From: a virus
Direction: 5' to 3' (one strand)
DNA length: 40,225 nt
Virus record (IMG/VR): IMGVR_UViG_3300032273_000004
Coordinates: 1 to 40,225 of that record
Shown: positions 17,280-33,355 of the stretch, one piece after another
Position numbering within the stretch: the first letter of the stretch is position 1
Layout: every line of letters starts with the position of its first letter
Notes under the pieces: generated by a model
What the model was told of the DNA's origin: nothing
What the model saw: only the letters and a program-made list of their open reading frames with translations
Databases searched by the model: none
Made by a program: the position numbers and the translations under genes

Positions 17280-18521
17280 TCACGCCGCGCAGACTCTTGG
17301 TTCATCTTGTTTGAATGATCTTGTCGATCTCGCCTCTGTCTCGTCGCGTAATGCCTGGAACCCTCGTTCATCTAACCACGCGTGATAACGGGCTAAGGCG
17401 TCGCGCATTGGACCCATGAATAACGATTGGTTATAGGCTTTGTCTTGTTTGCTCTGGGCATGGTTTAACAGGCGTTCACTGACGGAATTGTCTATCCCTA
17501 AATCGGTGCAAATGGTCTTTAAGGCTTTGCGGCAATCGTGGGCGCTCCACTCTTTATCACTGACGGTCTGAATGTGCTTTCTTGATGTGCTGTAACTTAA
17601 GGATCGAGCGTGACCGTGACCAGGGAACAGGAACACCCCGCGATAACCGGTTTCGATTTGCCAGGTGCGATAATCCTGTAACCATTGCGCTACTGGGTCC
17701 GTGATGGGTAGAACGTGCCAATCCCCTGTTTTGGTGTCCGCCATTGGTAAACGCCATTGACGGCCCACCATGTCGATGTGGCTCCACTTCGCGGCTAAGG
17801 TTTCGGTGATACGGGTGCCATGACACAGCAGCATGACAACCAAGCATTGCGTGACCGGATCACTTCCTAAGAGGGCTTTAAACAGTGGTTCGATGGCCGT
17901 GGCCAACAATCGCCCGTCTTTGGGTTCAATCGATACGGAAATGAAATCCGAAAACACCACGCCCGCTAATGGGTTGGACTCGATGCGCCCTAACTTATCG
18001 GCTTGGTTAAATGCTTGTTTTAATACGGATAACACCGACTTAACGGTCGCTAATGAATGGCTTTCTTGCAGTGGCCAGATCAAAGCGTCGTCCAATACTT
18101 GACGGTTAAGCGCTTCGATGGCCAAGTCGCCCAGGTGGGGCAATAGGTGGCACTTGATGGCGCTTTTGATGGTGGCCTTGCGGGTTTTCGAACGGTGGGC
18201 GTCTTTCTCGATGCGGCCTTGATACCAGTTCAGCACATCGCTTACGCTCTCGAACTCGGTGTGTAATAGATTGCTTTTGGTGTTAATGGCCAACATGGCC
18301 AGCTTTTCGGGTAAGACTTTCTTCACCGCTTTAACGGTTAACACGGGCCAGTAACCGAGCAGATACCAGCGATCACGACGCACCACATACCAAGAGCCCG
18401 TTTCACGATTTTGATGGAAGCGAAAGCGCAGCGGGAACGCCGGATCGCGCAAGGTTCGCACGGTGCCGGTGATTTCGCTTTTGATGTTCGTTTCTGAAAA
18501 AGTAATGACTTTGGTTTTCAT
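17280..18521 (-). CDS. int: Tyrosine recombinase / phage integrase
   Basis: 413 aa from the ATG at 18521, with GGGG 4-7 nt upstream; a TTG at 18551 would add 10 residues. N-terminal arm-binding-like part (RFRFHQNRETGSWYVVRRDR), core-binding SAM-like domain about 85-190 (SDVLNWYQGRIEKDAHRSKT), catalytic domain 200-390 with R in LLCHGTRITETLAAKW, K in MADTKTGDW, H-x2-R in SAHDCRKALKT, H in ERLLNHAQS and the Tyr in DKAYNQS. All catalytic residues are present. It is of the P4-like type. It is not a protelomerase: size and motif layout fit an integrase. Might integrate the phage or resolve plasmid multimers. Confidence 0.9.
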   Translation of the reverse strand: MKTKVITFSETNIKSEITGTVRTLRDPAFPLRFRFHQNRETGSWYVVRRDRWYLLGYWPVLTVKAVKKVLPEKLAMLAINTKSNLLHTEFESVSDVLNWYQGRIEKDAHRSKTRKATIKSAIKCHLLPHLGDLAIEALNRQVLDDALIWPLQESHSLATVKSVLSVLKQAFNQADKLGRIESNPLAGVVFSDFISVSIEPKDGRLLATAIEPLFKALLGSDPVTQCLVVMLLCHGTRITETLAAKWSHIDMVGRQWRLPMADTKTGDWHVLPITDPVAQWLQDYRTWQIETGYRGVFLFPGHGHARSLSYSTSRKHIQTVSDKEWSAHDCRKALKTICTDLGIDNSVSERLLNHAQSKQDKAYNQSLFMGPMRDALARYHAWLDERGFQALRDETEARSTRSFKQDEPRVCAA

Positions 18522-18612
18522 GGTGCCCCGGTTAAGACGCCAACCACTCAAACAACCAGTACACGGTGGGGAAGCTGACGCCTAATAAAATGAACTCTTG
18601 GATTTTTATCAC

Positions 18613-19619: not shown

Positions 19620-20035
19620 GCGGCCCCCTTGGTTCGACGGTCACGTTTACGGATGTAACACTCGGAATAGGCGTCGAGGGCGTCCAATACATGATCGGGA
19701 CGACTATCGGATTGACTGATCATCACATCCACCGGCTTAATGTCGAATTGGTGATACACCCCCGACAACGGGCCGTATTGATGGCACACAAACGCACCCA
19801 TTTGGCGCAACATGGCTTGTTCCTCGGCGCTATTGACGCCCACAACCAACGTGACCACTTCATCCGACCAACGACCTGACGTTTCGAGCTTAAGGCGACG
19901 AAGGCGTTCGTTTATGTCTGAAATGAAGCCCAGGTACACGCGGCGCACTCGGCTGGCTCCCAATTCATTGACCATTGCAAAGTGGAACGCGTCCGCTTCG
20001 CTTTCTTTCTCGCCCATCACCGCCATTAAAATCAT
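19616..20035 (-). CDS. Early hypothetical protein
   Basis: 139 aa, start overlapping the Cro-like stop as ATGA. Starts MILMAVMGEKESEADAFHFA; an alpha/beta pattern (DEVVTLVVGVNSAEEQAML, DVMISQSD) ends in a basic tail YIRKRDRRTKGAA. No recognised domain. Position suggests a gene of the first lytic transcript. Confidence 0.6.
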   Translation of the reverse strand: MILMAVMGEKESEADAFHFAMVNELGASRVRRVYLGFISDINERLRRLKLETSGRWSDEVVTLVVGVNSAEEQAMLRQMGAFVCHQYGPLSGVYHQFDIKPVDVMISQSDSRPDHVLDALDAYSECYIRKRDRRTKGAA

Positions 20036-20253
20036 GCCGCTCTCTCCGCTTGTTTCTGTTCGTATTCCAAATCGAACAAACTAAATTCCACTTTTCCGCG
20101 TGATACACGGCGGATCTTGTTGCGGCTTTTGGCTTTTGGAGATCGGCGAAAGTGAACCCATTCGTTCACTGACTTTGGGCTGACGTCGAGTTGCCTAGCG
20201 AGCCATGTTTGGCCGCCAAAACCCAACGTTTTGATCCAGTCTTGAAACCTCAT
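20032..20253 (-). CDS. Cro-like transcriptional regulator
   Basis: 73 aa, divergent from the CI-like gene. MRFQDWIKTLGFGGQTWLARQLDVSPKSVNEWVHFRRSPK is a compact HTH of the Cro/YdaS kind: short helices, recognition helix about SPKSVNEWVHF. It is the first gene of the lytic operon. Its promoter is TTGTCT-17-TAATCT (20311-20283), whose spacer is filled by ACAACGTTTTGTTGT. Confidence 0.75.
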   Translation of the reverse strand: MRFQDWIKTLGFGGQTWLARQLDVSPKSVNEWVHFRRSPKAKSRNKIRRVSRGKVEFSLFDLEYEQKQAERAA

Positions 20254-20450: not shown

Positions 20451-21098
20451 ATGAGACAAGAGATAAAAGAAATCATTGGCGACCGACTCCGCTCACTACG
20501 ATTAGGCAAGGGTTGGACCGCAAAAGAAGCCGCTCGGGCCGCTACCGCTGTCGCTGGTACAAACATTTCACCAGGACGCTGGCAAAACTGGGAATGTGCT
20601 TCCCGGGCGCCTAGTTTGGAATTATTCCCTTACCTGGCGAAAACCCTCGATACTACGCCGGAATATTTGGCGGGTTGGAAAAATGAGCCAGGGATAGGCG
20701 TCGAAACCAATAAATACATACTGGCCAACCTTGAGCCAGGTGGAAGCAACGACGATATTGCTTTTAATGTCGAAGCGTTAAACCGTCACGGACTGCATGA
20801 GCACAAACTCAAACTGATCACCGTTAATGATGATGCCATGAGCACACACTTTAGCCGTGGTAATTTGGTCCTAGTTGACCGCTCAGACACCGACATCAAG
20901 GGCGCGGGTATTTATGCCCTAGAAAGTGACGGCGCGGTCTTCTTGCGTTACGTTCGTCGTGAACCTGGCATCGGCTTTGTGATGTATGCCGACGATGACA
21001 AACACGCACCAGAACGCACGTTCACCATTGATGACTTTGAACGCATCCAGGTTATCGGCCGTTACGTGTTTAAAGCCTCTTGGGCCACACTGAACTGA
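20451..21098 (+). CDS. CI-like repressor, protease dyad missing
   Basis: 215 aa. N-terminal HTH domain (residues about 8-75; GKGWTAKEAARAATAVAG...ISPGRWQNWECASRAPSLELFPYLA) and a C-terminal S24/LexA-like domain (about 110-210; LKLITVNDDAMSTHFSRGNLVLVDRSD...GIYALESDGAVFLRYVRREPG). In cleavable relatives the motif is GDSM and later a Lys; here the Ser is A129 (DDAM) and the Lys place is R166. So the dimerisation fold is kept but RecA-driven self-cleavage by the usual dyad is not possible. Start ATG has AGGG 8 nt upstream. Followed by a terminator at 21116. Confidence 0.85.
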   Translation: MRQEIKEIIGDRLRSLRLGKGWTAKEAARAATAVAGTNISPGRWQNWECASRAPSLELFPYLAKTLDTTPEYLAGWKNEPGIGVETNKYILANLEPGGSNDDIAFNVEALNRHGLHEHKLKLITVNDDAMSTHFSRGNLVLVDRSDTDIKGAGIYALESDGAVFLRYVRREPGIGFVMYADDDKHAPERTFTIDDFERIQVIGRYVFKASWATLN

Positions 21099-25490: not shown

Positions 25491-25519
25491 TTTACAATAA
25501 GGACTTTTCGTCCTATTAT
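25491..25519 (+). promoter_or_regulatory. parA promoter with AGGACTTTTCGTCCT operator
   Basis: Plus strand: TTTACA (25491-25496), 17 nt, TATTAT (25514-25519). The 15-bp palindrome AGGACTTTTCGTCCT (25500-25514) fills the end of the spacer. The same palindrome is found at 29995, 30674 and 31221, each in the same place relative to a -10 TATTAT. Confidence 0.75.
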
Positions 25520-25523
25520 CACT

Positions 25524-25555
25524 TTCAAGAATTAACGATTTCTTTAATTAATGAA
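25524..25555. repeat. Octamer array 4, between par promoter and parA
   Basis: Octamers in phase, with alternating orientation: TTCAAGAA, TTAACGAT, TTCTTTAA, TTAATGAA. The last two lie just before the parA SD (GAAAGGA). Arrays 3, 4 and 5 flank the par promoter and genes. Confidence 0.6.
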
Positions 25556-25568
25556 AGGACGCCAACCA

Positions 25569-26210
25569 ATGGGAAAAAAAATAGGTGTAGTTTCGCAAAA
25601 AGGCGGCGTGGGTAAATCCACGGTTGCGCGCGCCCTAGCGACCGCTTATGCAAAATTCGAATGGGATGTGAAAATCGCAGATTTAGACATCAACCAATCA
25701 ACCAGCTATATGTGGCAAAAACGCCGTCTAGCCTCTGAAATTAATCCGGTTGTTTCAGTCGAATGTTTTGGCAACGTTGGCCAAGCACTCAAGCAAGCTG
25801 ACAACTACGATATGTATATCTTCGACGGCGCCCCACACGCCACCAAAGCAACATTAGAGATCGCCCACGCTTCGGACATGGTCATCATTCCTACGGGCCT
25901 CGCCCTCGATGATATGGAGCCTTGCGTCATTCTAGCGAACGACTTAGTCAAACAAGGGATCGATAGAAACAAGATTGTCTTTGTATTCTGCCGAACCGGT
26001 GACAGCAAAGCCGAGTTGCAAGATTCATTCGATTATATGGCCCAAACACCCTACAAGGCGATCGAGGCTCCATTACAAGAAAGAACCGCTCTAAGACGTG
26101 CCAGCGATAAAGGCCAAGCCGCTATCGAATGCCAATACAAAGGCCCACGCGAACAAGCTGAAAGCTTGGTTCAAGCCTTAATTGACAACCTTAACGAATT
26201 AACGAAATAA
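25569..26210 (+). CDS. parA: ParA-type partition ATPase (type Ib, small)
   Basis: 213 aa from the ATG at 25569 (MGKKIGVVSQKGGVGKST), preferred to 25551 because AAAGGA lies 9 nt upstream. Deviant Walker A SQKGGVGKST at residues about 9-18, switch-like IADLDINQSTSYMWQ at 38-52, and Walker B IFDGAPHATKATLE. It has no N-terminal HTH, so it belongs to the short ParA (ParF/type Ib) group that works with a small RHH partner. ParA moves plasmid copies apart over the nucleoid. Array 5 lies over its last codons, just ahead of the RHH gene. Confidence 0.9.
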   Translation: MGKKIGVVSQKGGVGKSTVARALATAYAKFEWDVKIADLDINQSTSYMWQKRRLASEINPVVSVECFGNVGQALKQADNYDMYIFDGAPHATKATLEIAHASDMVIIPTGLALDDMEPCVILANDLVKQGIDRNKIVFVFCRTGDSKAELQDSFDYMAQTPYKAIEAPLQERTALRRASDKGQAAIECQYKGPREQAESLVQALIDNLNELTK

Positions 26211-27007: not shown

Positions 27008-27039
27008 AAAAAGGCCGCTATGATAGCGGCCTTTCTTTT
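27008..27039. terminator. Bidirectional terminator between convergent genes
   Basis: GGCCGCTA-TGA-TAGCGGCC flanked by AAAAA on the left and TTTCTTTT on the right. It serves the plus-strand gene ending at 27006 and the minus-strand lipoprotein gene ending at 27038. Confidence 0.8.
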
Positions 27040-27385
27040 ATGACTTGTTAGCGCCCCAGCCCATTGTCTGAACGCAAGAAGCGACCAAGTGGTTCGTTTC
27101 TGCTTTCGACACGCTGATCGAGCTATCCAGGCAATCAACCAGCATTTGGGCGTTCTGCTTAAACTCTGGGCCTTCAACCAAAGCCCCATCAATTAACCAC
27201 CCATCTTTATTTAGGTTTCTAAGCCAAAAACCTGCAGTTCCTAACTTTCGCCCTGGTTGCGCTTCGCTCCATTGTTGACGATCGAGCCCTACCGAACTCC
27301 CATCATAAAGCCAATCACTATCCGGGTCACTACATCCAGACACAGCCCCGACCAATACCAGGGCGGCGATCATTCTTTTTATCAT
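27038..27385 (-). CDS. Small lipoprotein
   Basis: 115 aa. A signal peptide MIKRMIAALVLVGAVSGCSD ends with a lipobox whose Cys is about residue 18. The mature part has DSDWLYDGSSVGLDRQQWS and four further Cys. It could act in superinfection exclusion or lysogenic conversion; the sequence does not show which. It is the last gene of a leftward unit with the two small paralogues 27403-27896. Confidence 0.7.
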   Translation of the reverse strand: MIKRMIAALVLVGAVSGCSDPDSDWLYDGSSVGLDRQQWSEAQPGRKLGTAGFWLRNLNKDGWLIDGALVEGPEFKQNAQMLVDCLDSSISVSKAETNHLVASCVQTMGWGANKS

Positions 27386-27402: not shown

Positions 27403-27576
27403 TTAAGCTACTTCTAGTAACTCTTTAATTTCAACCATTAACCCTTTATTCAACAAGTTCGCCGCGCGAATCTCGTCGATGACATTATCATCGTTCTTAG
27501 TTAGGTTGTCCGCTACTGCCAAAATATTTAAAACCTGATCACACTTAGCCAAAACGGCCGCTTTGTTATTGCTCAT
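27403..27576 (-). CDS. Small protein, paralogue 1 of a tandem pair
   Basis: 57 aa from the ATG at 27576 (MSNNKAAVLAKCDQVLNILA), GGG 8-6 nt upstream; the longer frame to 27603 has no SD. By eye it shares about 25 residues with its neighbour 27720-27896: KC(D/E)Q(V/I)L-x-IL-x-V, (D)DN(V/I)-x-DE, AANLL-x-KGL, LxE. All-helical, amphipathic. A TATAAT -10 lies at 27623-27618 upstream. Confidence 0.7.
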   Translation of the reverse strand: MSNNKAAVLAKCDQVLNILAVADNLTKNDDNVIDEIRAANLLNKGLMVEIKELLEVA

Positions 27577-27610
27577 ATCAAACCCTTTAGTGGTAACAAT
27601 CATTTGTTAT

Positions 27611-27680
27611 GACCATTATATCCAGATTCCCAAACGCGCAAGTGATCACAGGTGTAGATCAGAAACCCCCGATAATGGTC
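27611..27680. promoter_or_regulatory. Region between the paralogues: TATAAT and inverted repeat
   Basis: Inverted repeats GACCATTAT (27611-27619) and ATAATGGTC (27672-27680) bracket the region. Minus strand TATAAT at 27623-27618 with a poor -35 (TTGCGC, spacing 15), as expected for an activated promoter. Candidate own promoter for paralogue 1. Confidence 0.4.
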
Positions 27681-27719
27681 CCTGATCCAAACTATAAAGA
27701 CCAAACTATCAGTCTTTTC

Positions 27720-27896
27720 CTAGTCCATTTCGACTAGATTATCCACCTCCAAAACTAAGCCTTTTATCAGTAAATTAGCGGCTAATACCTCATCGCAAAT
27801 GTTGTCACCTGATTTCGCTAAATCATTCTCAACTTGCAAAATCGCTAATATTTGCTCACATTTTGAATGAATAGAATTTTTATTGCCTTTAGCCAT
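27720..27896 (-). CDS. Small protein, paralogue 2 of a tandem pair
   Basis: 58 aa, ATG at 27896, GGAG 8 nt upstream. MAKGNKNSIHSKCEQILAIL...GDNICDEVLAANLLIKGLVLE is a helical protein. It is the first gene leftward from the XRE regulator. Candidate promoter TTGCCC (27949-27944), 17 nt, ACAATA (27926-27921), with the 24-bp palindrome centred about 90 nt upstream of the start. Function unknown; placement next to a TF recalls the TF plus small-protein lysis modules of marine phage-plasmids (family knowledge). Confidence 0.7.
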   Translation of the reverse strand: MAKGNKNSIHSKCEQILAILQVENDLAKSGDNICDEVLAANLLIKGLVLEVDNLVEMD

Positions 27897-27992
27897 TGTT
27901 ACTACTCCAACTAACGTATTTATTGTATTTATATGATTTTTAAGGGCAATTTAACCGCATAAGAAACAGCGTCAATAGGCTAGGACAAAATG

Positions 27993-28029
27993 GTCACTTT
28001 CTTGCAAGAAAGTGACAAAACTGTCACTT
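27993..28029. promoter_or_regulatory. 24-bp perfect palindrome (27993-28016) plus third half-site
   Basis: Half-site GTCACTTTCTTG and its exact inverted copy form a perfect 24-bp palindrome. A third half-site GTCACTT follows at 28023-28029. It lies between the divergent paralogue 2 and XRE genes, 25 nt before the XRE start. Probably the operator of that regulator, used for autoregulation and for activation of the small genes. Confidence 0.8.
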
Positions 28030-28041
28030 ATGAGGTGAACT

Positions 28042-28386
28042 ATGTCACATGAGCCTATAATCGAAGCGCTGAAAGTGCGTCGAGAAATGGCTGGGTTATC
28101 GCAACAAGAGATCGCAGACCTGGCCGGAATGAGTAAACGAACGTACCAAAGAATCGAACAAGGCGATTCAGACATGAAATTTAGTCAATATCGGGCAATT
28201 ATTCGCGTTTTGAAAACAACCGACCTTGATATTTCATTAGATATGATGGGGCTAGACAAAATAACAAGTTGGGATGTTGCCACAGCAACGCGGGTTTTAT
28301 CGCCAATCTTAAGGCGACACTTTGTCACTTTGCTGATCGAGCTGTATCGAGAATTCGAAGAATTGAAAGATAGGAAGACAAAATAG
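28042..28386 (+). CDS. XRE-family transcription regulator
   Basis: 114 aa, AGGTGA 4-5 nt before the ATG. Residues about 8-62 are a classic HTH: LKVRREMAGLSQQEIADLAGMSKRTYQRIEQGDSDMKFSQY. The C-terminal half (ILRRHFVTLLIELYREFEEL) is helical and may dimerise. It is transcribed away from the two paralogous small genes. Likely controls the palindrome at 27993-28016. Confidence 0.8.
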   Translation: MSHEPIIEALKVRREMAGLSQQEIADLAGMSKRTYQRIEQGDSDMKFSQYRAIIRVLKTTDLDISLDMMGLDKITSWDVATATRVLSPILRRHFVTLLIELYREFEELKDRKTK

Positions 28387-29944: not shown

Positions 29945-30018
29945 TTATCTCGGTTTTGGCCTTGGCACCTTGCCCGGCCTTCGAGATAAATAATAGGACT
30001 TTTCGTCCTACCTTGCAA
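29945..30018 (-). promoter_or_regulatory. Promoter plus leader, copy A
   Basis: Minus strand: TTGCAA (30018-30013), 17 nt holding AGGACGAAAAGTCCT (30009-29995), TATTAT (29995-29990), then a leader of about 45 nt: TTATCTCG ... CGAGATAA, with an inner GGCC/GGCC and GGCA/TGCC pairing. The CGAGATAA arm also holds the only SD-like bases (GAGA) 5-11 nt before the ATG, so the stem can hide it. Nearly identical to copies B and C. Confidence 0.75.
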
Positions 30019-30623: not shown

Positions 30624-30697
30624 TTATCTCGGTTTTGGCCTTGGCACCCTGCCCGGCCTTTGAGATAAATAATAGGACTTTTCGTCCTAAATTACAA
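30624..30697 (-). promoter_or_regulatory. Promoter plus leader, copy B
   Basis: Minus strand TTGTAA (30697-30692), 17 nt with AGGACGAAAAGTCCT (30688-30674), TATTAT, then the conserved leader. One base of the outer stem differs (TTATCTCA/CGAGATAA), weakening one pair. Otherwise the same as copies A and C. Confidence 0.75.
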
Positions 30698-31170: not shown

Positions 31171-31244
31171 TTATCTCGGTTTTGGCCTTGGCACCTTGCC
31201 CGGCCTTCGAGATAAATAATAGGACTTTTCGTCCTAGCTTGCAA
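31171..31244 (-). promoter_or_regulatory. Promoter plus leader, copy C
   Basis: Minus strand TTGCAA (31244-31239), 17 nt with AGGACGAAAAGTCCT (31235-31221), TATTAT, then the conserved leader TTATCTCG...CGAGATAA before the ATG at 31166. No octamer array upstream, unlike copies A and B. Confidence 0.75.
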
Positions 31245-31932: not shown

Positions 31933-32820
31933 CTAATAGGGTATGTCGGCGCAGTCGTCTACTGGGCCGGGGTCAGACTCTAACTCGCGAGACTTATACA
32001 GCGCCTTGATCTCTGCATGGCTAAAGCCCTGGTTCAAAAGGTTTAGCGTCTCTTCTGTCCGGTTCTGGGACTGCAACGAAGCTAACATTTCAGTTATTGG
32101 CTTCGTCACACGTTCGAATTTAGCATGGCTGCGTTGCTTGTTGCGTTTATCTCTGACCTTATCATCTACTTTACGGTAACTATCTAACTGCTCTTGCTCT
32201 GGCGTTTTCTCAAGCTGTTTGATTTGCTTTCTTTGTTTAGCCTTGGCGCGTTGCACTGTCACAAACTGACCAAGACCCAGCATTTCAAAGATCACCATAT
32301 TTAAACGTTTGATTGATGCTACACCACGATAAACAGGGCCGACATCACTGTCCTTTTCTTCTCTTTGTTCAAAAGAAAGGTAAAGGCCCGCGCGTTTTAA
32401 GCTGTAGATGCAATTATCAACAGTTCTTGATGGCATGTTAAGGCGATCAGCAAACAAGCTATTTTCACAGCGTTCTAACTTATGAGTGACTCGATCACGA
32501 ACACCAACGAGGTTTGATGCTAAGTCATAATGAAGGATAGCCGTCGCTAAAACCTTCATGGTATTAGCGTAATGATCAGCCCTATCGCAAATTCGAGTTT
32601 TTAGCTTACTGCGATTTTGGATACTTTGAAGGACCTCAGTCGCCGCTTGCAACAACACATAAGGAAGTCGTTCGCTAACGTCATAACCAAGGCTAGATGA
32701 TAGGTATTTCGCATTTTCTTCGGCGTTTTTCTTCGCCCATGCGGTTTTTTCTTGTTGCGAGTAGTCTCTAAACTCGTCAGCTAGGACTTTAGCCCTAGTT
32801 ACAGATACATTTTCTTTCAT
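31933..32820 (-). CDS. rep: Plasmid replication initiator protein, RepA (IncFII/IncI-like)
   Basis: 295 aa from the ATG at 32820 (MKENVSVTRAKVLADEFRDY); a TTG at 32856 is also in frame. The middle has a winged-helix part (LFADRLNMPSRTVDNCIYSLKRAGLYL) and VASIKRLNMVIFEMLGLGQF, the pattern of antisense-controlled theta initiators. The C-terminal third is basic and charged (KAKQRKQIKQLEKTPEQEQL), typical of the family. No SD is obvious, which fits coupled translation. Replication would start at oriR downstream. An alternative family with the same layout cannot be excluded. Confidence 0.75.
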   Translation of the reverse strand: MKENVSVTRAKVLADEFRDYSQQEKTAWAKKNAEENAKYLSSSLGYDVSERLPYVLLQAATEVLQSIQNRSKLKTRICDRADHYANTMKVLATAILHYDLASNLVGVRDRVTHKLERCENSLFADRLNMPSRTVDNCIYSLKRAGLYLSFEQREEKDSDVGPVYRGVASIKRLNMVIFEMLGLGQFVTVQRAKAKQRKQIKQLEKTPEQEQLDSYRKVDDKVRDKRNKQRSHAKFERVTKPITEMLASLQSQNRTEETLNLLNQGFSHAEIKALYKSRELESDPGPVDDCADIPY

Positions 32821-32847
32821 ACTGATGCTTTTTTTACCGTTTAAGGC

Positions 32848-32968
32848 TTGCAGCAATCAGGTACAACAAGTAAACTCTAATTTGTTATGTAGGGTTTTGT
32901 ATTATGCCGCCAAACATTAATACACTTGTTATTGCCCGATTAAAGAACCCCGCTTTTGCGGGGTTTTT
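32848..32968 (+). ncRNA. Candidate antisense RNA of rep (copy-number control)
   Basis: Plus-strand promoter TTGCAG (32848-32853), 17 nt, TAAACT (32871-32876), start near 32884; intrinsic terminator AACCCCGC-TTTT-GCGGGGTT-TTT at 32946-32968, so an RNA of about 85 nt. Inside, TGTATTA/TAATACA (32898-32904/32918-32924) makes a hairpin with loop TGCCGCCAAACAT. The opposite strand (rep mRNA) shows TTGGCG in its loop, the motif known from antisense-controlled IncB/IncI/IncFII-type replicons. The leader may also encode a 10-aa peptide from ATG TTT GGC on the minus strand. Confidence 0.65.
32946..32968 (+). terminator. Terminator of the antisense RNA
   Basis: AACCCCGC-TTTT-GCGGGGTT with TTT after it, then GCTTTTT. 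Plus orientation is stronger than minus, where TTCTTTAAT follows. Confidence 0.85.
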
Positions 32969-33086: not shown

Positions 33087-33114
33087 AAAAAAAGATCTGG
33101 TTATTTATCCAGAT
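33087..33114 (-). terminator. Terminator of the LexA-controlled gene
   Basis: Minus strand ATCTGG-ATAAATAA-CCAGAT followed by C and seven T. It overlaps the stop of the 33105 gene, so that gene is a single-gene unit. Confidence 0.75.
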
Positions 33115-33308
33115 TGGTCCGACTCGCCGTTCTTCTGGTCGAATCGCTTTAACTGCACTGCAGTTGCACTCGCCACCTTAATCGCTTGATGCAGTCCAGG
33201 ATCGCAAATTTCGCTATCCTCGCTTGCTGCCTCAATAAAACGTAATAATGCGGCCAAGTTATCGACTGTACCTGATCTCGTTCCGTCGTTTAAAGGGTTC
33301 ACGTTCAA
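33105..33308 (-). CDS. Small LexA-controlled protein, candidate SOS anti-repressor
   Basis: 67 aa from the TTG at 33308 (LNVNPLNDGTRSGTVDNLAALL), which has GGAG 8 nt upstream; a GTG at 33317 (70 aa) would have its SD touching the start. Helical, amphipathic (DNLAALLRFIEAASEDS, DPGLHQAIKVASATAVQLKRF), no DNA-binding motif. A near-consensus LexA box is at 33336-33355 over its TATAAT -10. It stands between the late tail operon and rep. As the repressor cannot self-cleave, a role like that of Tum (phage 186) or AntC (N15) is a fair inference. Confidence 0.7.
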   Translation of the reverse strand: MNVNPLNDGTRSGTVDNLAALLRFIEAASEDSEICDPGLHQAIKVASATAVQLKRFDQKNGESDQSG

Positions 33309-33335
33309 AATTTGCACTCCGATCGACTTTTATTA

Positions 33336-33355
33336 TACTGTTTATTTATACAGTA
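33336..33355. promoter_or_regulatory. LexA (SOS) box
   Basis: TACTGTTTATTTATACAGTA: the outer TACTGT/ACAGTA is perfect and the spacing CTGT-N8-ACAG is the gammaproteobacterial LexA consensus. On the minus strand the TATAAT at about 33338-33333 is the -10 of the downstream small gene, so bound LexA would block it. No good -35 is visible. Confidence 0.85.

Follow-up and report, generated by a model that had tools for sequence, protein, structure and literature searches.

What do two tandem small genes do where they lie divergent from an XRE regulator, beside the partition gene of a phage-plasmid? The window analysed here, 40,225 bases long, covers an entire virus record and has P2-like tail genes and a tyrosine integrase gene (17280-18551). 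An earlier note on this DNA took the locus for a possible new type of module, in which a regulator and a small antirepressor act on the repressor encoded at 20451. The functional part of this guess is the best-supported reading of the data given below. The module type is not new: an XRE gene with a divergent smORF beside par genes has already been described, and tested, in Vibrio phage-plasmids (PMC10432266).

Gene content of the module

The genes run in the order ParA, smORF2 and smORF1 (both − strand), XRE (+ strand) and then a replication-type gene (31933-32856), the last being named from its position and synteny. The features of the module are as follows:

25551-26210, + strand: ParA-family partition ATPase, the genomic context of the module; syntenic ParA genes occur in relatives
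27403-27576, − strand: smORF2, 57 aa, the distal gene, apparently of ancestral position and type; ortholog of the single smORF in Aliivibrio phage H905
27720-27896, − strand: smORF1, 58 aa, the XRE-proximal gene, apparently an added copy and predicted to form a helical hairpin (ORF list, family profile, AlphaFold2)
28042-28386, + strand: XRE/HTH regulator, 114 aa, TF63-like family (profiles, identity, predicted fold)

The XRE gene starts ∼1.8 kb past the end of parA, which places the module beside par; TF-smORF modules of the TF63/TF72 type lie either there or between repA and telN. The earlier description of two tandem ORFs of 58 and 57 aa, divergent from the XRE gene, was confirmed. Including the stop codons the ORFs measure 177 nt (smORF1) and 174 nt (smORF2), within the roughly 150-190 nt expected of the divergent ORF; an alternative in-frame start at 27603 would give a smORF2 product of 66 aa. 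A search of Rfam over the module region gave no match above the gathering scores.

A small lipoprotein-like gene (27038-27385, 115 aa, N-terminal VSGCS) lies immediately downstream of smORF2 and is kept in H905. Its only profile match, to LPAM_1, was sub-threshold.

The small proteins belong to a recognisable family

The two small proteins were said to share about 25 residues, and their alignment gives 46-47% identity, or about 27 residues. Each matches a single family profile with an E value of about 1e-22 or better. The claim that they are unlike any known protein was not borne out, as at least 16 further genomes or contigs contain relatives of the family. The search for the family beside XRE genes that the earlier note had called for showed that it recurs in Vibrio/Aliivibrio phage-plasmids. 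A divergent ORF of ∼53-62 aa lies next to an XRE gene in Aliivibrio phage H905, in Vibrio phages PhiPS02, K256 and K303, and in plasmids of V. sp. HDW18, V. alginolyticus, V. cidicii, V. parahaemolyticus and V. cyclitrophicus; the order ParA, divergent smORF, XRE is common to the four phages and to Vibrio plasmids. Residues D31, E36, L43 and E50 (smORF1 numbering) are invariant in the family alignment. A profile built on part of the family recovered the XRE-adjacent small gene in contigs outside the training set, and the smORF profile also gave a weak match in Motilimonas cestriensis (E 0.0014).

The AlphaFold2 model of smORF1 is a two-helix hairpin (helices 2-27 and 34-57; pLDDT 93.3). A structural search with this model returned generic helical hairpins only, none of them significant; a VP882 protein was among the matches, with an E value of 4.3.

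Both small genes are present together only in the window phage and one close relative, L006. Because H905 and the L039 phage carry a single small gene, of the smORF2 type, and lack smORF1, the latter looks like an added copy and smORF2 like the ancestral type. At 1395-1590 of L007, a 6.3-kb metagenome contig that is 93-94% identical to the window, smORF2 has lost most of its length to a ∼140-bp deletion with CCCTTTA repeats on its flanks, and smORF1 and XRE are intact. Each type is therefore found alone in some relative, although the L007 deletion could instead be an assembly fault.

A probable TF63-type regulator

Homologues of the XRE regulator were found by tblastn and profile searches in Vibrio and Aliivibrio phages and plasmids. 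The regulator is 36-44% identical, over nearly its full length, to the XREs of K242/L043/L046 and the V. chagasii type, the probable TF63-type proteins of this comparison; for TF63 (WP_016786069) the published threshold of homology is >35% identity across ≥70% of the query (PMC10432266). The XREs of the K242 and V. chagasii p2 type have ParAB neighbours and a divergent 183-nt smORF. Homologues of the phage-63 TF and smORF have been reported in the V. crassostreae linear phage-plasmid genus TG89 (PMC13230959), to which K242 presumably belongs. From the ParAB context, the 183-nt smORF and the TG89 report, the K242 and V. chagasii p2 XREs are probably of the TF63 type. A tree of 58 XREs, built on few columns, does not settle the deep position of the window XRE.

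The XRE was folded from an alignment of the window and the scanned loci only. The top Foldseek matches to the model were ClgR, C.BclI (2b5a), C.Esp1396I (3g5g), C.AhdI (1y7y) and 5woq, and all four of the structures named for TF63/TF72 in PMC10432266 (1Y7Y, 2B5A, 3G5G and 5WOQ) were among the matches.

TF63 lies between parAB and the late genes of V. cyclitrophicus phage 63 and activates a divergent 183-nt smORF, the product of which inactivates cI63 without proteolysis; homologues of TF63 were reported in 117 phages, some of them outside repA-telN loci (PMC10432266). The window shares with TF63-smORF63 and TF72-smORF72 (phages 63 and 72 of V. cyclitrophicus 1F-97) an XRE-like TF of the controller-protein/ClgR fold, a divergent smORF of 50-60 aa beside par genes, a phage-plasmid of the Vibrionaceae type and an S24-type cI. 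It differs from them in that its smORF is duplicated and belongs to a family distinct from the K242 type (probably the smORF63 type), its cI is predicted to be non-cleavable, and it has an extra small gene with a LexA box. It also has an integrase and no protelomerase, the search for TelN (PF16684) giving no match anywhere in the window record, and the linear-plasmid/TelN trait is not needed to define the module.

Two other systems are similar in part. In vibriophage VP882, the phage VqmA controls Qtip, a divergent small antirepressor, much as proposed here; VqmA is, however, a ligand-binding quorum-sensing receptor, and the 114-aa window XRE has no such domain. Nor did the searches made here bring up a link in sequence between the smORFs and Qtip. 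The XRE-LuxR-smORF modules of Aeromonas phages Apop and ARM81ld also have an XRE and a divergent smORF near par, but they carry LuxR, and no LuxR gene adjoins the window XRE.

An XRE and a small protein next to parA might also be a toxin-antitoxin pair or a plasmid-maintenance module. The XRE matches antitoxin-like HTH profiles (Y4mF/HipB-like) and the neighbourhood is partition-like, but these matches fall below the curated cut-offs, the genes are divergent rather than operonic, and the smORFs match no toxin-antitoxin, toxin or defence profile. Moreover, expression of smORF72 is harmless in hosts without the phage (PMC10432266). A maintenance module is thus very improbable, and the toxin-antitoxin/defence reading was rejected for lack of profile support. 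A metabolic role for the small proteins is likewise not supported.

Of 228 Vibrio genomes, 88 contain XREs of the regulator's family (L061-L083, mostly contig C2). Many of these XRE genes are apparently chromosomal, and many have a divergent small ORF of ∼50-113 aa that belongs to other sequence families.

The control region contains a conserved pair of boxes

Three elements were located between smORF1 and XRE:

27984-27999, + strand: box 1, GACAAAATGGTCACTT, at −58 from the XRE start; a similar pair occurs in 15 homologous loci
27993-28016: perfect 24-bp palindrome, GTCACTTTCTTGCAAGAAAGTGAC, between and overlapping the two operator-like boxes
28014-28029, + strand: box 2, GACAAAACTGTCACTT, at −28 from the XRE start; a similar pair occurs in 15 homologous loci

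The perfect 24-bp palindrome reported between the divergent genes is real and has no second copy: no other perfect palindrome of the window exceeds 14 bp, and none of 300 Markov simulations produced one of 24 bp or more. Its centre lies about 108 nt, rather than the 90 nt first given, upstream of the start of the first small gene, and about 37 nt ahead of the XRE start. The palindrome is present only in the window phage and its two near-identical relatives. As a conserved operator it was therefore rejected, being limited to this clade; the conserved element is the pair of boxes. A pair of GACAAAACnGTCCTAT-like boxes lies upstream of XRE in the 15 other loci, with a spacing of 31 bp in 14 of them and 30 bp in one. 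The window boxes GACAAAATGGTCACTT and GACAAAACTGTCACTT are spaced at 30 bp and read GTCACTT in their 3′ parts where the family has GTCCTAT; the interval that separates them is covered by the palindrome. The paired boxes are taken here as the putative XRE operator.

Each small gene had been credited with its own promoter. Promoter-like matches were found upstream of smORF1 only (27975-27948 and 27949-27922, − strand) and none in 27577-27719, ahead of smORF2, and the number of such matches was at the shuffle level (4 versus 3.0 ± 1.8). A promoter of its own for smORF2 is therefore not supported.

The XRE could instead act chiefly to repress its own gene and the smORFs, from twin sites of the controller-protein type whose boxes are nearly fixed in relation to the XRE start. 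The smORFs would then be induced when the XRE is titrated or inactivated; the wiring would be reversed, and the small proteins could still be antirepressors. In most loci the boxes occupy an autoregulation position, near −58 and −28 relative to the XRE start, and the fold resembles that of restriction-modification controller proteins. Such proteins both activate and repress from twin sites. Against a mainly repressive role, XRE-Apop activates its own operon, and TF63 and TF72 activate their smORFs (PMC10432266). We consider reversed wiring unlikely, while giving it some weight, and retain activation of the smORFs by the XRE as the preferred reading.

The repressor has lost its self-cleavage residues

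The predicted target of the small proteins and the gene divergent from it are:

20032-20253, − strand: Cro-like HTH protein divergent from cI, where the presumed lytic promoter begins (match to phrog_35, a transcriptional repressor, with E 2.4e-5)
20451-21098, + strand: cI-like repressor with HTH and S24 domains, predicted target of the small proteins; catalytic columns changed from Ser to Ala and from Lys to Arg

When aligned with E. coli LexA as the reference, the window cI has Ala at the Ser119 column and Arg at the Lys156 column. Among the 15 repressors of the group, all have Arg at the Lys156 column and nine have Ala at the Ser119 column. Because both the Ser and the Lys catalytic residues are replaced, the window cI is predicted not to cleave itself, and we regard its self-cleavage as unlikely. 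The PhiPS02 and p-ED287 repressors retain the Ser and might keep weak self-cleavage activity. A PDB sequence search with the window repressor gave no match.

The study by Silpe in 2023 covered only phages with autoproteolytic repressors (PMC10432266). The window repressor falls outside that selection, and the mechanism does not require an autoproteolytic cI. Without self-cleavage residues in the window cI, DNA damage has to take a different route.

A third small gene lies behind a LexA-type box

A candidate for this route was found between the replication-type gene at 31933 and the tail genes:

33105-33317, − strand: third small ORF, 70 aa with a GTG start, candidate SOS-controlled antirepressor; conserved family with a LexA-type box upstream
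33338-33353: perfect LexA-type box with the − strand sequence CTGTATAAATAAACAG, located 20 nt ahead of the GTG start codon

A single LexA-type box per 40 kb is not significant alone. In the family of the 33105-33317 ORF, however, the box is found just upstream in 13 of 13 cases, 12 of them perfect and one with a single mismatch. A small ORF linked to a LexA box is also present in the class-C phages L028, L048, L057 and L060 and in Vibrio phage MAR. The arrangement resembles that of the LexA-controlled antirepressors of the Gifsy phages (PMC3121763), where a LexA-type box precedes a small gene far from an uncleaved repressor; as in Gifsy, the box of the 33105 ORF is directly upstream of the gene. 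The window differs from Gifsy in that the 33105 gene would coexist with an XRE-controlled small protein.

In Vibrio phage vB_VpaM_MAR (VHML-like, linear), a LexA-type box precedes a 74-aa ORF divergent from XRE (L018 4445-4669) by 46 nt, so that here the XRE-side small gene may itself be SOS-controlled. In the H905 group, a 51-aa − strand ORF is preceded by a second perfect LexA-type box (L003 13089-13104, L030 8210-8225).

XRE-linked and LexA-linked small proteins are related in class C

We compared the XRE-linked and LexA-linked small proteins by profile, and the shuffle counts given here come from 60 shuffles per test on several family pairs, uncorrected. For class C, the profile of the XRE-linked smORFs ranked the LexA-linked ORFs 1-4, 9 and 15 of 1749 small ORFs, with a best E value of 0.0025 and a mean rank better than that of 60 of 60 column shuffles. 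The reverse search agreed, placing the XRE-linked set within the top 15 of 1749. These profile data support a relationship between the two kinds of small protein in class C. For the window class, the forward search gave a mean rank of 59 of 1745, equalled by 1 of 60 shuffles, the reverse search was equalled by 21 of 60, and hhalign of XRE-linked against LexA-linked proteins gave P 0.004; for the lineage of the window phage relatedness is thus only suggested. Cross-class profile comparisons of the XRE-linked and LexA-linked proteins detected nothing.

The 33105 ORF could be SOS-regulated and yet have another lytic role, for example in replication or host takeover, with no relation to smORF1 and smORF2. 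It lies between a replication-type gene and tail genes, it had no family match in a PHROG search, and its sequence link to the smORFs of its own lineage is weak. On the other side, a cI without its self-cleavage residues, combined with a small gene that carries a conserved LexA-type box, matches the arrangement of the Gifsy antirepressors, and the corresponding class-C genes are detectably related. A separate lytic role is a serious alternative, if the less probable one, to that of an SOS-driven antirepressor.

Homology of smORF1 and smORF2 to the K242-type smORF was rejected, 6 of 60 shuffles being equally good. As there is no clear similarity to that smORF, function is carried over to the window smORFs by gene context and not by sequence.

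A model for the switch

The mechanism proposed here for the smORFs is inferred from their anatomy and from tested relatives. The TF63-type XRE would bind the two boxes between the divergent genes and control its own promoter and, on some cue, would activate smORF1; smORF2 would be activated either directly by the XRE or by operon read-through. Both helical-hairpin proteins are proposed to bind cI(20451) and inactivate it without proteolysis, which would switch the phage from lysogeny to lysis, and the LexA-boxed gene at 33105-33317 would be the likely SOS-driven counterpart. We consider this model as a whole probable. On the best reading, a single non-cleavable repressor is the common target of small antirepressors under XRE and under SOS control; two different signals may thus meet at one lysis switch.

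The target of the small proteins could differ from the one proposed. They might act on the XRE, as feedback inhibitors, or on the repressor of a co-resident phage rather than on their own cI. Small helical hairpins could bind any partner, and the Gifsy and Fels-1 antirepressors do act on non-cognate repressors (PMC3121763). The tested smORFs of this module type, in contrast, are specific for their own cI (PMC10432266), and we regard another target as improbable; the cI at 20451 remains the favoured one.

The module belongs to a published kind of lysis switch. It stands out by its duplicated small gene, by a repressor predicted to be non-cleavable and by the third gene with a LexA box. Also new here is that the small proteins form a recognisable family and that the conserved control element is the box pair, not the palindrome. 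More tentatively, and at a little less than an even chance, we propose that repressor self-cleavage has been abandoned across a widespread group of Vibrionaceae phage-plasmids. These would leave lysogeny through pairs of related small helical antirepressors that act on a single repressor, one under LexA and so answering DNA damage, the other under a TF63-type XRE that senses a different cue, with the XRE-linked member duplicating and diversifying. If this is true, the TF-smORF lysis switch extends to phage-plasmids with a non-cleavable repressor, and the response of such phages to DNA damage and to a second cue would be explained. It would also give a sequence-based route to antirepressors, hitherto hard to recognise, by searching the same genome for two small genes, one with a LexA-type box ahead of it and one divergent from an XRE of the TF63 type. 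The cue of the XRE could then be sought with the help of a defined operator, a pair of GACAAAACnGTCCTAT boxes at 31-bp spacing.

A near-palindrome in four copies

A near-palindrome, AGGACTTTTCGTCCTA, occurs in four copies in the window (25501-25513, 29996-30008, 30675-30687 and 31222-31234) and was found too in relatives L006, L013, L039 and L041. One copy lies ∼40 nt upstream of parA; the other three are within 117-bp direct repeats (29937, 30616 and 31163), each close to a small gene's 5′ end. The copies are possibly a centromere, or the operator of a second regulator.
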